From positions 1 to 45,471 of the forward strand of contig CAMAUZ010000067.1 of assembly GCA_945861535.1 (NCBI GenBank): a stretch of DNA of 45,471 nt, read 5' to 3'. Made by a program: the position numbers and the translations under genes. Positions 40,722-45,103 of the stretch are shown piece after piece; position 1 is the stretch's first letter; every line of letters begins with the position of its first letter. The DNA comes from Akkermansia muciniphila. GTDB taxonomy: Bacteria; Verrucomicrobiota; Verrucomicrobiia; Limisphaerales; BJHT01. The notes under the pieces are model-generated. The model was not told the DNA's origin. It searched no databases and saw only the letters and a list, made by a program, of their open reading frames with translations.

Positions 40722-41482
40722 GGCTTGTCTTTTTAGCGCCGGACCAATGGCGAGGGCGGAGTCCGGAAAGTTGGACTGCGACAGTCGTTTGGGAGACAGC
40801 ATTGCGGGAAACGTTAATCGTGAACGGTCCGGTGGCGAGCATTTTATTTTCGACGCAGTTACCGCGCAGGCCGGGGTGCGTCACGCACGCGGGCAAGGAG
40901 GTGAGTGAACGCGGCGGGGGGCGAGCAGGTGTTGCAGTCGGCGGGGGGGGCGAGCAGGTTGCGCGGTTCGAGTTTGTACCGGTCCGCGCGGAACCGGCCG
41001 GTGGTCGTGGCGGTGGGGCGGAAATTCCGGGGGGGGATTTGCGACCGAGGATGACCGGTAGGCTCTTGGCGGAAGAGAATTGGCGTGACGGCGGCTGGTT
41101 CGGCGTACGGGAATGCGTGCAGCACGCGGCGGGGATGGGCGCACGCCGGGCGCATCGCAGTTTCTTGCACGCGGCTTGGCGTCCGCGCCACCGGGTGGGG
41201 CAGGCATTCTTGCCTGCCAGTTGGCGGGGCATCCCTGCCCCGAGTTCCCGGTTCCGCGGGGGTGCTCGGCCAGGGCAACGGGCGGCAGGGATGCCGGTCG
41301 AACTGGCCGGCAAGGATGCCCGCCCCACCCCGCCGCCGCGCGTGCCGCCGCAGGTTGCCTCGACCACACCACCCGTGCCTGCCGAAGGTTGCAGGAAACT
41401 GCGATGCGCCCGCGCACGCCGGCAGGCGGATATTTTTATTTGCGCGCGGCGCGAGAGCCGGCAAAGAGTCTGCGCGACAAAA
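40722..41482. other. Intergenic region before the hybrid histidine kinase, mostly palindromic
   Basis: About 760 bases. The frame of the kinase is open back to about 40802, but it crosses the composite inverted repeat at 41139-41419 and shows no protein-like pattern. Its start is therefore placed at 41483. No promoter was confidently identified. Confidence 0.55.
41139..41419. repeat. Composite nested inverted repeat upstream of the histidine kinase
   Basis: Outer arms are GCGCACGCCGGGCGCATCGC at 41139 with AGTTTC, and GAAACTGCGATGCGCCCGCG with CACGCC ending near 41419. They enclose a second inverted repeat (41194-41329) with GGTGGGGCAGGCATTCTTGC and GCAAGGATGCCCGCCCCACC ends and a GGGGCATCCCTGCCCC palindrome. 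Confidence 0.82.
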
Positions 41483-43021
41483 GTGGTGAAGCTCCCCGAT
41501 GAAATTCTAAATGCGGTCGCTGGCGTCGTCGTGACGCTGGACGGGGCTGGCTCGGTGTCGGGATGGAACGCCGGCGCGGAGCTCGCTTCGGGTTGTTCCT
41601 CGACGGAGGCGGTGGGTCGGAATTGGTGGGGGTTTTGTCCGGCGTCGTTTCATCCACAGGCGGCAGGGCATGCGGTGGCGCTGCGCGAGCGCGGGGAACT
41701 GCGGCTGGCGCAGCCGATCCAGCACAAAAACGGCACGGTGCGCTGGTTCGAGATCGTGGTGGTGTCCTTGACGGGCGCGGCGGGTTTCCTGGTGGTCGGC
41801 CACCCGGTGCCCGGGGAGCGGGCCGGGACGACGGCCGCGCCGGCGGTGGATCCGGCGCTGTTGCAGGCGGACAAGAACCGGGCGATCAGCCTGTTGGCGC
41901 GCGGGGTGGCGCATGATTTCAACAACATCTTCGCGGCAATCCTGTCGCATCTGGACCTGCTGCGGACGGCACCCGACTTTCCCGCGGACCTGCGGGAGAA
42001 TGCCGAACTGGCGCAGGCCAGCGCGCGGCGGGGGGCGGACTTGGTGGGAAAATTGCAGACGTTCAGCAGCCAGGCCGAGCCGCGGCGGGTGCCGCTGGAT
42101 TTGGCGGGACTGGTCGGGGAGGTCTTTGTGTTGTTGCGGCGCAGCATCGGCGTGGATGTCTCGATGCGGTGGCTGCCGGCGCCCGGCGGGCTGTGGTCGG
42201 TGGCGGCGGACGCAAACCAGATTTTGCAGATGCTCTTCAATCTCTGCCTCACGGCGCGCGAGGCGGTGGCGCAGGGTGGCGAAATCATCATCCGTCTCGA
42301 AAATGTGGCGGTGCCACCGCCGGTGCTGGCGGAGAATCCGACGGGAGATTTCGTGGTGCTGGCCGTGAGCGGGCTGGGGCCGGGCCAGGGTCTCGCGGCG
42401 CTCGGAGCGCTGGGCACGCGCACCGCGGAAGCGGGGGACGCGGCAAAGAGCGGCGGCCTGGGATTGTCGATCGCCGACAGCATCAGCGCGGGGCACGGCG
42501 GCTGGCTCGAGGTGGAGCGACGGCCGGGCGTCGGGACGGAATTCCGCGTGTTCCTGCCGCGCGCGGGCCAGTCAGTCGGCACCACGCCGCAGACGGAACG
42601 GTCGCTGGCCGCCGCGGGTGGCGGGCTGGATGGGACGGAGACGATCTTGGTGGTGGATGACGAGCAGCCGCTGCGGCTCCTGATGCGGGCGGTGCTGGGG
42701 TATCGCGGCTACCAGATCATCGAGGCGGGCAGCGGGGAGGAATCGCTGCAGGTGTTTGCAACGTCGCCGTCGCCGGTGAGCCTGGTGTTGATGGACGTGA
42801 ACCTGCCGGGCCTGAGCGGTTGGGAGGCGATGGCGCAACTGCGGGCGCGAGCGCCGGGGCTGCCGGTGGTGGTGCTCAGCGGCGGGTATGCGGAGGAGGA
42901 ATCGCGGCGGGCGATGGCGTCAGGCGCCGCGGATTTTGTCTCCAAACCGTTCGACAACCAGCAGTTGGTGCAGACCGTGCGGAAGGTGCTGGACGAGGCG
43001 GCGGCGCGGGCACGGCGGTGA
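41483..43021 (+). CDS. Hybrid sensor histidine kinase/response regulator with degenerate ATP-binding motifs
   Basis: 512 residues from GTG 41483; GTG 41486 is an alternative. A PAS-like sensor covers about residues 1-110 (AGVVVTLDGAGSVSGWNAGA). The H-box is RGVAHDFNNIFAAILSHLDL with His144. The catalytic domain has Thr257 in FNLCLTAREAV where the Mg-binding Asn is expected, and SGLGPGQG at 296-303 where the G1 motif DxGxG should have Asp (here Gly297). The F-box is absent; the G2 motif GGLGLSIADS is kept. The receiver domain (388-505) has the DDE acid pocket, phospho-Asp438 (LVLMDVNLPG), VVLSGGY and SKPF. ATP hydrolysis looks unlikely; it may act as a phosphatase or a phosphorelay acceptor. 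It converges on the flagellar genes, but a regulatory link is inference. Confidence 0.85.
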   Translation: MVKLPDEILNAVAGVVVTLDGAGSVSGWNAGAELASGCSSTEAVGRNWWGFCPASFHPQAAGHAVALRERGELRLAQPIQHKNGTVRWFEIVVVSLTGAAGFLVVGHPVPGERAGTTAAPAVDPALLQADKNRAISLLARGVAHDFNNIFAAILSHLDLLRTAPDFPADLRENAELAQASARRGADLVGKLQTFSSQAEPRRVPLDLAGLVGEVFVLLRRSIGVDVSMRWLPAPGGLWSVAADANQILQMLFNLCLTAREAVAQGGEIIIRLENVAVPPPVLAENPTGDFVVLAVSGLGPGQGLAALGALGTRTAEAGDAAKSGGLGLSIADSISAGHGGWLEVERRPGVGTEFRVFLPRAGQSVGTTPQTERSLAAAGGGLDGTETILVVDDEQPLRLLMRAVLGYRGYQIIEAGSGEESLQVFATSPSPVSLVLMDVNLPGLSGWEAMAQLRARAPGLPVVVLSGGYAEEESRRAMASGAADFVSKPFDNQQLVQTVRKVLDEAAARARR

Positions 43022-43067: not shown

Positions 43068-43460
43068 TCAGGAATAGCTGTACCAGGCGGAGCCGAGCGG
43101 GTGGCCGTAGGAGCGCTGGACGAGGCGCAGATTTAGCGAGGAGCGGTCGAGTTCGGCGCGCTCACGATCGGCGGCGTGGCGCCGCTCGGCGAGGATTTCG
43201 GCGTTGCGAGTCTCGAGAAGGATGAGTTCCTGCACGACGAGTCGGAAGGGGTTTTCCAGAACGTGACCGGTGGCCTGGGCGCGGGCCAGTTCGGCCTCGA
43301 AGGGTTCCGAGGCGGCGATGATCTGGCGCTGGAGATCGGCCTTGTGGTCCTGAATGCCGGCGAGCCGCGGCCACGCTTCGGCGCGGATGGATTCGGCTTC
43401 ACCTTCGGAGAGGCGGCGCCATTCCTCGTATAAACGACTCAACTGCTCATGGGCGGTCAT
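43068..43460 (-). CDS. FlgN/FliT-like flagellar chaperone (probable)
   Basis: 130 residues from ATG 43460 (MTAHEQLSRLYEEWRRLSEG). Almost entirely helical, with the KADLQRQIIAASEPFEAELA region and a C-terminal RLVQRSYGHPLGSAWYSYS, resembling FlgN/FliT-type chaperones that escort hook-associated proteins. It follows fliS by 42 bases in the same direction, which supports a flagellar function. Similarity is weak at the sequence level. Confidence 0.6.
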   Translation of the reverse strand: MTAHEQLSRLYEEWRRLSEGEAESIRAEAWPRLAGIQDHKADLQRQIIAASEPFEAELARAQATGHVLENPFRLVVQELILLETRNAEILAERRHAADRERAELDRSSLNLRLVQRSYGHPLGSAWYSYS

Positions 43461-43502
43461 GGCGCGAAATCCGGCTGAATCCACATGGCCGGCGACTGGG
43501 AA

Positions 43503-43946
43503 TTACGCACTGGCCTCGGCAAAGGCGGGCTGTTCCTGAGAAACCGCGCCGTGCGGGTTGAAGGTGCGGAGCATCTCGGCCCAAGCGTCGCGCAGGATGG
43601 TGAGATGGCCGATGGTTTCGTCAATGCCCGCCTTGGTTTTGTGCTGGTTGCTCTCCTGCAGCCGCCAGTCCAGATAGTGGTAGAGGCGGCGCTGGTTGGC
43701 GGCGAAGGCCCCGCCTTCCTGCATGTTCAGCGAGAGGTTTAGTTCGTTGATGATGTCCTGAGCGCGGATGACGTTGTTGCTAATCGTGAGGTTGAACTCG
43801 AGGGGATCGTCGTTGGCAAAGCCGAGTTTGGCCTGCTCCAAAAACCGGATGGCTCCCTCGAAGAGCATCAGCACCAACTGACCCGGCGGCGCGGTGCGGG
43901 CGGCGACTTGCCGATACGATTGCCAGGGTGTGGGGCGTGCGGGCAT
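43503..43946 (-). CDS. fliS: Flagellar export chaperone FliS
   Basis: 147 residues from ATG 43946. FliS binds the C-terminus of flagellin and prevents premature polymerisation before export. It matches the family: WQSYRQVAARTAPPGQLVLM then LFEGAIRFLEQA, the NVIRAQDIINELNLSLNM helix, and RRLYHYLDWRLQESN with HLTILRDAWAEM. It lies in a probable flgM-fliS-flgN-like operon with gaps of 40 and 42 bases. The C-terminal 20 residues are Ala/Glu-rich and poorly conserved. Confidence 0.93.
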   Translation of the reverse strand: MPARPTPWQSYRQVAARTAPPGQLVLMLFEGAIRFLEQAKLGFANDDPLEFNLTISNNVIRAQDIINELNLSLNMQEGGAFAANQRRLYHYLDWRLQESNQHKTKAGIDETIGHLTILRDAWAEMLRTFNPHGAVSQEQPAFAEASA

Positions 43947-43986: not shown

Positions 43987-44265
43987 TTACCGATTCTGGA
44001 GGTGGTCGGCCAGCAGTTCGCCGATTTTCTTCACCATTTCGGCGGGGGGATAATCGCTCTGTTTCACCAGTTCCTTGGCGCGGGCGACTTTGTCGGCGCG
44101 GATGTCCGGCGTTTGGGCCAGGGCTTTGTTGAGCGCGTTGGCGTTGGGGAAGGATGCGACATCCTCGGTGGCGGGGGCAGGCCCCGCGGCGGCTTTGGCG
44201 GCGGCGGAGCGGGTGGCGCTGACGCCTTCGACCGGACTGAAGTGATAGTTGGTGTTGATTTGCAT
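43987..44265 (-). CDS. flgM: Anti-sigma28 factor FlgM
   Basis: 92 residues from ATG 44265; a TTG at 44277 is a less likely start. FlgM binds sigma28 (FliA) and holds back late flagellar genes until it is exported through the finished hook. The C-terminal sigma-binding region has the family pattern (PDIRADKVARAKELVKQSDY, then PPAEMVKKIGELLADHL), while the N-terminal half is Ala-rich and flexible, as expected. Upstream is a near-perfect sigma28 promoter (44321-44347), so FlgM probably autoregulates. It is the first gene of the flgM-fliS-flgN-like unit. Confidence 0.9.
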   Translation of the reverse strand: MQINTNYHFSPVEGVSATRSAAAKAAAGPAPATEDVASFPNANALNKALAQTPDIRADKVARAKELVKQSDYPPAEMVKKIGELLADHLQNR

Positions 44266-44320
44266 AACGAATTTCAAAATGGGTGGCAGTTCCAGTCCAA
44301 GATGAACAATTGCTAGGGGT

Positions 44321-44368: not shown

Positions 44369-45103
44369 TCATCGCGGAGGCAGGCTGGCGAAGGTGGCAT
44401 GCGCGGCGTAGCGACCGAAGCGGCGCGGCGAGTTGAGCATCGCGCGGGAATCGCCCAGCGCGCTTTCGTCAACGTGATGTTCGAGGTAATAGCGGCGGGC
44501 GGCGTTGACGACGGTCGGTTCGCCGGCATCGAAGACCTCGTCCACGGCCCACAGGATGCGGGCGTCGGTCAAGGACACGAGCTTGAGGCTCCAGCCGACG
44601 GCGAGGGGTTTGTAGGCGCGGAACTGGGTGAGCCGGGCGAAAAGCACGGCGTCGGAGGCGGTTTCCTCGCGCAGACGGCCCAGGGCGTCGGGCGGGATCG
44701 GATCTTCCGTGGTCCATTCGGCGCGGCCGGTCCATTGCTTGAGTTGCGCGCTGGTGAGCTGGATCACTTCAAAATGTTTGGTCTTGCCGAGTTCGGAGCT
44801 CAACAACGGCTGCAGCGTGTCGCGGCCGGCGGCGGACGAACTGGCGTCGTCGCTGAGCGTCATCGGCAGCAACACCACGCGGCGTACCTGAGCGAGGCGG
44901 TCGGACGGGTGGACGTGGACATTGGTCGGGCGATAGCTGGGGCCGGTGACGCGGTCGGGCGTGTTGTCGGAAAACGGATTGTCAAAGGGGAGTTTTGCCG
45001 ACAGTGCCTTCGCCGAAAACCCCTCCGTGGCGCAACCGGTGCCGAGCAATCCAACCAGCAAACCCAGCGCGGCAAGCGCCGCACTGCCGAGGCTGAGACC
45101 CAC
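44369..45103 (-). CDS. Predicted lipoprotein upstream of flgM
   Basis: 244 residues from ATG 45103. The signal LGLLVGLLGTGCATEG has Cys24 as the likely lipidated residue. The mature protein has VRRVVLLPMTLSDD, then HFEVIQLTSAQLKQW and SDAVLFARLTQFRAYKPLAV, then LKLVSLTDARILWAVDEVFD. This layout recalls CsgG/FlgO-like outer-membrane lipoproteins that hold a beta-alpha nucleotide-fold-like domain. The neighbourhood makes a flagellar outer-membrane role possible but unproven. The stop lies 103 bases before the flgM start, and the sigma28 promoter sits in that gap. Confidence 0.7.
   Translation of the reverse strand: MGLSLGSAALAALGLLVGLLGTGCATEGFSAKALSAKLPFDNPFSDNTPDRVTGPSYRPTNVHVHPSDRLAQVRRVVLLPMTLSDDASSSAAGRDTLQPLLSSELGKTKHFEVIQLTSAQLKQWTGRAEWTTEDPIPPDALGRLREETASDAVLFARLTQFRAYKPLAVGWSLKLVSLTDARILWAVDEVFDAGEPTVVNAARRYYLEHHVDESALGDSRAMLNSPRRFGRYAAHATFASLPPR

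Follow-up and report, generated by a model that had tools for sequence, protein, structure and literature searches.

Why would a bacterium keep, beside its flagellar genes, a hybrid histidine kinase that has lost most of its ATP-binding residues, and what might such a protein do? The question arises from one gene in a contig stretch of 45,471 nucleotides (the window). A Pfam scan orders the domains of the encoded protein as PAS, DHp, catalytic/ATP-binding (CA), and receiver, and it places HisKA, HATPase_c, and Response_reg in a single chain, all above their Pfam cut-offs, with HisKA barely so (27.7 versus 26.9 bits). The gene and its parts are as follows.

41483 to 43021, forward strand: hybrid histidine pseudokinase gene, GTG start, 512 residues in translation, stop codon ending at 43021
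41498 to 41809, forward strand: PAS sensor domain, residues 6-109 (Pfam PF00989, 24.8 bits)
41843 to 42082, forward strand: DHp region, residues 121-200, as delimited for estimating selection (Pfam HisKA, residues 136-196)
41912 to 41926, forward strand: H144-D-F-N-N148, the phosphoacceptor His with a phosphatase motif of the D-x-x-N type (orthologue alignment)
42083 to 42598, forward strand: degenerate CA domain, residues 201-372 (HATPase_c at 243-360, 40.5 bits)
42251 to 42253, forward strand: Thr257, replacing the Mg-binding Asn of the N-box (orthologue alignment)
42371 to 42373, forward strand: Gly297, replacing the adenine-binding Asp of the G1 box (orthologue alignment)
42392 to 42451, forward strand: former F-box and ATP lid, residues 304-323, canonical residues absent (orthologue alignment)
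42455 to 42466, forward strand: G2 box with its glycines kept, GLGL, residues 325-328 (orthologue alignment)
42641 to 42982, forward strand: receiver domain, residues 387-500, with D392, D393, D438, S466, and K488 (PF00072, 86.1 bits)

The GTG start at 41483 is supported by homology with the kinase of a sister species (G001), which sets in about 17 codons 5' of it. A longer open frame from 40802 was rejected, as the homology begins near 41483 and positions 41190-41345 belong to a dispersed repeat. That upstream element is an imperfect palindrome of 156 bp, found at 40 places (itself included) with at least 85% identity in the window's genome (40 of 252 candidates scored). As single-stranded DNA, it has a hairpin z-score of -4.6, and it is probably a REP/MITE-like dispersed repeat.

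In kinases of this type, the Asn of the N-box binds Mg, the Asp of the G1 box binds adenine, and the D-x-x-N motif serves phosphatase action. Residues were called by aligning the window kinase with 16 orthologues. The original prediction, made from this DNA alone, held that the Mg-binding Asn, the G1 Asp, and the F-box are lost while the G2 glycines remain, and that the phosphoacceptor His and the receiver are intact; the alignment bears this out residue by residue. The G1 box reads VSGLGPGQ rather than the canonical VxDTGxGM, the F-box stretch lacks FxPYFTTK, and G2, present as GGLGLS, is the only ATP-binding box that remains. On the other side of the ledger stand His144 with its HDFNN box and all five receiver residues (D392, D393, D438, S466, and K488), and His144 and Asn148 are conserved in 17/17 orthologues. 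The kinase of the sister species, 88% identical to that of the window, carries identical losses, which argues that they are neither chance nor a sequencing slip.

Comparison with active kinases of the same type, the check that the prediction had proposed, agrees. Asn257 and Asp297 are retained in all 80 control kinases from other named genomes, a count that is biased at position 257, where some loci were fetched with an N-box pattern permitting only N or T, and unbiased at position 297. These controls came from at least 80 matches listed to a profile of the orthologues in the named genomes; the motif tally covers all 80 loci with stops read as X, whereas the structure alignments used 67, excluding nine interrupted by stops or frame breaks and four others. 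Ordinary kinases from relatives likewise retain both the Asn and the Asp (17/17). It is thus very probable, judging from these residues, that the window kinase is unable to autophosphorylate and would act on the phosphate of another kinase.

To place the loss in time, we turned to the orthologues. A family profile built from 13 members and searched against 320 genomes of the order identifies 17 orthologues at 470-612 bits, with the next kinase at 384 bits. Together they are monophyletic relative to seven outgroup kinases, with support of 100/100. Fifteen of the 17 have the canonical Asn at 257 and Asp at 297, the exceptions being the window's genome (G000) and G001, and this pair sits on a long stem of 1.43 changes per column with short tips. 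When a profile of all 17 was run against the named genomes, the best of the matches listed reached 417 bits over a long joined stretch, with 372 bits for its best single domain, compared with 511-617 bits for the orthologues themselves. No orthologue-like score therefore appears among the matches listed, which does not imply absence from those genomes.

The original prediction had also said that canonical N and G1 residues in orthologues of the same gene context would refute it. All six fliS-linked orthologues outside the genus do keep these residues, whereas the sister species G001 does not, and this pattern points to a derived loss limited to the genus. A single loss in the ancestor of the window's genus is the simplest reading of the alignment and tree. 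Within this sample, the ATPase loss is confined to one genus, as a derived trait, and is not a conserved property of the locus.

The receiver has also changed in parts of the family. Two orthologues in fliS context and from another genus, in G012 (L042:9277-10419) and G115 (L049:8694-9851), keep N and G1 and have a degenerate receiver pocket, with VVES or VVEP for VVDD and Val in place of Ser; at the phosphoacceptor position, G012 has Glu and G115 still has Asp. This degenerate receiver is under purifying selection, with a dN/dS of 0.14.

Selection on the window kinase was estimated from the G000 and G001 genes by the Nei-Gojobori method with our own script. The dN/dS is 0.184 for the whole gene and highest in residues 1-120, which include the PAS domain (0.399), with 0.088 in the DHp region and 0.158 in the receiver. 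In the dead CA domain it is 0.104, and neutrality is rejected (p 1.5e-13); the former lid, at 0.124, is similar to the DHp region and receiver. These values bear on the idea that the gene is decaying after its need was lost. The long stem branch to the G000/G001 pair would suit decay, but the low ratios in the gene and its dead domain, together with an open frame in both species, leave us giving it almost no credence. Sequencing error was rejected along with decay, given the losses common to both species and the low dN/dS. A maintained pseudokinase, with strong purifying selection in its dead domain, is well supported by these ratios, which also favor a retained role such as phosphatase action or phosphotransfer.

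Structure prediction suggests that the pseudo-CA domain still folds. The AlphaFold2 model is mostly confident in this domain, with most blocks at a pLDDT of about 90, and drops below 50 in the former lid (residues 304-323), where the blocks of a control kinase, modeled from an almost identical alignment, average 83-96. The low values may come in part from divergence of the lid from the alignment rows or a poor fit to them. A fold search returned a list filled with receiver matches and uninformative on the catalytic domain, so that the absence of ChpT from it is no evidence. The overall fold and the kept G2 glycines could be taken to mean that the protein binds ATP in a non-standard way and is an active kinase. 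We regard this as very improbable, however, because the N, G1 Asp, and F-box residues are missing together in both species, in a family that otherwise keeps the Asn and Asp.

We then examined the genes that face the kinase, all on the opposite strand.

43068 to 43484, reverse strand: FliT-like gene, 138 residues, between the kinase and fliS, with no Pfam match of its own
43503 to 43946, reverse strand: fliS (PF02561, 102 bits)
43987 to 44277, reverse strand: flgM, anti-sigma-28, a weak match (PF04316, 20.6 bits with a cut-off of 25; TIGR03824, 24.0 bits with a cut-off of 40.75)
44369 to 45103, reverse strand: 244-residue protein that by eye resembles a lipoprotein and is conserved next to flgM in five fetched loci

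The kinase had been described as converging on a flgM-fliS unit. The convergent orientation holds, but the contact is not direct, as the 138-residue gene intervenes before fliS. Relatives of this gene match the FliT family below its cut-off of 29.5, at 22.5 bits in G028 and 15.0 bits in G012, and the relative in G078 gave no FliT match. The protein at 44369-45103 belongs to no known family; one of its relatives has a sub-threshold LpoB match.

The proposed role in motility control gains support from gene order, since fliS lies convergent with the kinase, on the same contig and within 2.7 kb, in 8 of the 17 genomes (G000, G001, G012, G028, G034, G078, G115, and G127); 14 of the 17 have any FliS match. 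In G127, our own gene caller places other open frames between the kinase and fliS. A flgM-like match adjoins the kinase in G038 and G011, and flagellin is found in 15 of the 17 genomes. Flagellin and FliS searches gave no match in G011 and G040, yet both keep the hybrid kinase. Beside the kinase of G011 (L038:7396-7809) lie a flgM-like gene and a mere 31-residue piece of fliS; the flagellar locus of this genome is apparently being lost while the kinase persists together with the two proteins described next, K2 and R2.

If the window kinase acts on phosphate from elsewhere, a partner is needed, and the neighborhoods of its orthologues offer a candidate. K2 is a PAS kinase, and R2, in its complete copies, is a receiver protein with an HD-GYP type domain. 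In G011, G034, and G256, the hybrid kinase has K2 followed by R2 next to it; the HD-GYP type domain is present in the two complete R2 proteins, and that of G034 is interrupted by a contig end. In G038 and G040, a diverged K2 copy and a receiver-only protein adjoin the hybrid kinase. The window's genome carries the pair on contig C46, apart from the hybrid kinase, which is on C67. That the K2-R2 pair tends to co-occur with the hybrid kinase, and stands next to fliS or the kinase in several genomes, is new here; literature searches for Verrucomicrobia with flgM/fliS, and for histidine kinases with HD-GYP and flagella in Verrucomicrobia, found nothing on this locus.

All 17 hybrid-kinase genomes have some match to both K2 and R2 (E<=1e-30 and 1e-50). 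At E<=1e-100, R2 occurs in 89 of the 320 genomes, namely, 15/17 with the hybrid kinase and 74/303 without (Fisher p 1.5e-7, kinship ignored); the two kinase genomes below this cut are G034, whose R2 is truncated where its contig ends, and G040, which has a receiver only, at 42% identity. Within FliS-bearing genomes, the figures are 13/14 and 70/124 (p 0.008, kinship again ignored). R2 is thus common in flagellate genomes that lack the hybrid kinase, so the co-occurrence may largely reflect flagella in both, and the weaker link with FliS held fixed lowers our confidence in the explanation that we favor below. Among the 100 strongest FliS places (E 1.2e-34 or better), R2 lies no more than 6 kb from fliS in 46 of the 47 genomes where the two share a contig, although this nearness is partly forced by short contigs. 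The sole exception, G115, is the one complete genome with the kinase; its R2 is 1.6 Mb from fliS and its kinase is beside fliS, so that the kinase and R2 are unlinked there.

A HHExxDGxGYP motif is present in 15/15 R2 proteins from 15 genomes, and the best family for R2 of G000 is a c-di-GMP phosphodiesterase regulator (346 bits, cut-off 400). The HD motif usually takes the form HDIGK; in R2 it reads HD[IV]GL in 12/12 pattern-matched proteins of the 15 examined (e.g., L130:3105-4370). K2 of the window's genome has an HDFSN His-box and intact N, G1, and F-box, and K2 of G001 likewise keeps the His-box, N, G1, and F-box; the C-terminal receiver of K2 is degenerate by eye in both. Directly after K2-R2 on C46 lies a third, ordinary hybrid kinase (L130:4346-6670), canonical in N and G1 by eye, and this stretch is conserved behind the pair in G001 as well.

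Taking these observations together, we favor, with slightly better than even confidence, a maintained pseudokinase of the RetS kind, a phosphatase or phosphate acceptor that drains a partner pathway, with K2-R2 as the best candidate partner and c-di-GMP as the output. The CA domain would fold and stay under selection while no longer binding ATP productively, leaving the kinase unable to phosphorylate itself. The helix bundle with His144 and Asn148 and the receiver would instead act on phosphate supplied by another kinase, presumably K2 signaling to R2 as a c-di-GMP phosphodiesterase; the partner pathway would most likely be dephosphorylated or drained to a degree set by PAS input, and the resulting c-di-GMP level would bias the choice between swimming and stopping. 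The conserved His144 and Asn148 fit a transmitter phosphatase, and a role as phosphate acceptor would suit the intact receiver. We infer the lack of autophosphorylation, the phosphatase or acceptor activity, the partnership with K2-R2, and the effect on motility from this evidence. The original suggestion is thus borne out in part. A dead ATPase with an intact His and receiver is supported, and selection on the dead domain favors a retained role; removing phosphate or passing it on would be a plausible form of that role.

The closest precedent is RetS of Pseudomonas aeruginosa, which, in the sections of the source consulted, is likewise a hybrid with a degenerate ATPase, an intact His-box phosphatase motif, and a receiver Asp (PMC5992135). 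Its degenerate HATPase does not support autophosphorylation, and it acts on another kinase that is active, GacS, both as a phosphatase and by accepting phosphate, as we propose for K2; an HExxT form of the phosphatase motif is described in the same sections (PMC5992135). RetS differs in having lost its G-boxes, where the window kinase keeps G2 and has lost N, G1, and F, and in pairing a periplasmic sensor with two receivers rather than one PAS domain with one receiver (PMC5992135). The best NCBIfam models for the window kinase are those of CckA-type hybrid kinases (NF046020 and NF046026, 202.4 and 179.5 bits), far from the CckA equivalog cut-off of 1000 bits, and its best solved relative is of the CckA type too (PDB 5idj, E 5.1e-26). 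The HDFNN box and the order of CA and receiver are shared, and the ATP-binding residues are lost in the window kinase.

ChpT and Spo0B are not known to have a PAS domain or a receiver. They illustrate a different outcome, in which the window kinase would be a histidine phosphotransferase in a relay, His144 taking phosphate from a receiver and handing it to another as a positive step with no drain. Degenerate kinases that pass phosphate on are known in these two proteins, and PhyT of Sphingomonas melonis is a former kinase with a degenerate ATPase that takes phosphate from others, according to extracts of the sources (PMC5898713, PMC9981736). PhyT differs in its HRxxN DHp and membrane anchor, and the extract describes no receiver of its own (PMC5898713). 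The kept His144 and intact receiver agree with a relay, as does a weak HPTransfase match (PF10090, 15.1 bits), but that match falls short of the 22.9-bit cut-off and is unspecific, K2 of the window's genome scoring 14.1 bits. A receiver and a conserved D-x-x-N equally fit descent from a bifunctional kinase/phosphatase, and we consider a relay rather unlikely.

Selection across the entire pseudo-CA domain, former lid included, suggests a binding surface, and hence an allosteric or heterodimer partner that senses a phosphorylated receiver or pairs with a kinase, with His144 chemistry unneeded. DivL, which keeps the kinase fold without the activity and works in a CckA-type network, and the ChrS pseudokinase are precedents in the passages available (PMC4211667, PMC9491836). 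DivL, however, carries a Tyr (Tyr550) at the phosphoacceptor site (PMC4211667), where the window kinase family has His in 17/17. His144, Asn148, and the receiver active-site residues would not be required for a purely allosteric role, which we judge distinctly improbable. The choice among phosphatase, relay, and non-catalytic partner is an inferential one, and the literature search for precedents found none closer than RetS, PhyT, ChpT/Spo0B, DivL, and ChrS.

A broader proposal, which we hold to be unlikely, treats the K2 family and the hybrid kinase linked to fliS-flgM as a two-kinase unit throughout the order, in which one ATPase is enough, setting c-di-GMP through R2 with a flagellar output. 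Lineages would then have discarded different parts: the hybrid ATPase (G000 and G001), the ATPase of a K2 copy beside an intact hybrid (G040), or the hybrid receiver pocket (G012 and G115). In each of the 17 genomes, one or both ATPases look intact, and none has both dead, a result that chance alone would give with so few losses. The K2-family neighbor of the hybrid kinase in G040 (L035:11630-13201) retains the His but lacks the His-box Asp, N, G1, and F-box, and the hybrid kinase there is intact in N and G1. The main K2 clade (93/96) excludes this dead copy, which groups with a second K2 of G038 in a placement made unsure by its long branch, and a match search did not find the main K2 in G040, which has this diverged copy and the receiver-only protein instead. 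It is therefore a second pseudokinase in the same neighborhood rather than a clean mirror image, and its position lowers the odds of a two-kinase unit.

The mechanism that we favor, phosphatase or acceptor action on a partner pathway, would be of a known kind, and its wiring to a c-di-GMP enzyme is plausible. Histidine pseudokinases of the RetS type are usually encountered at their evolutionary endpoint. In this family, orthologues with their ATP-binding residues intact share the gene order in related genera, which allows the loss to be assigned to a single lineage, and the selection acting on the dead domain indicates that some function was kept or gained. If the link to K2-R2 is true, the locus would connect a pseudokinase to the control of c-di-GMP and flagella in a way that can be tested.
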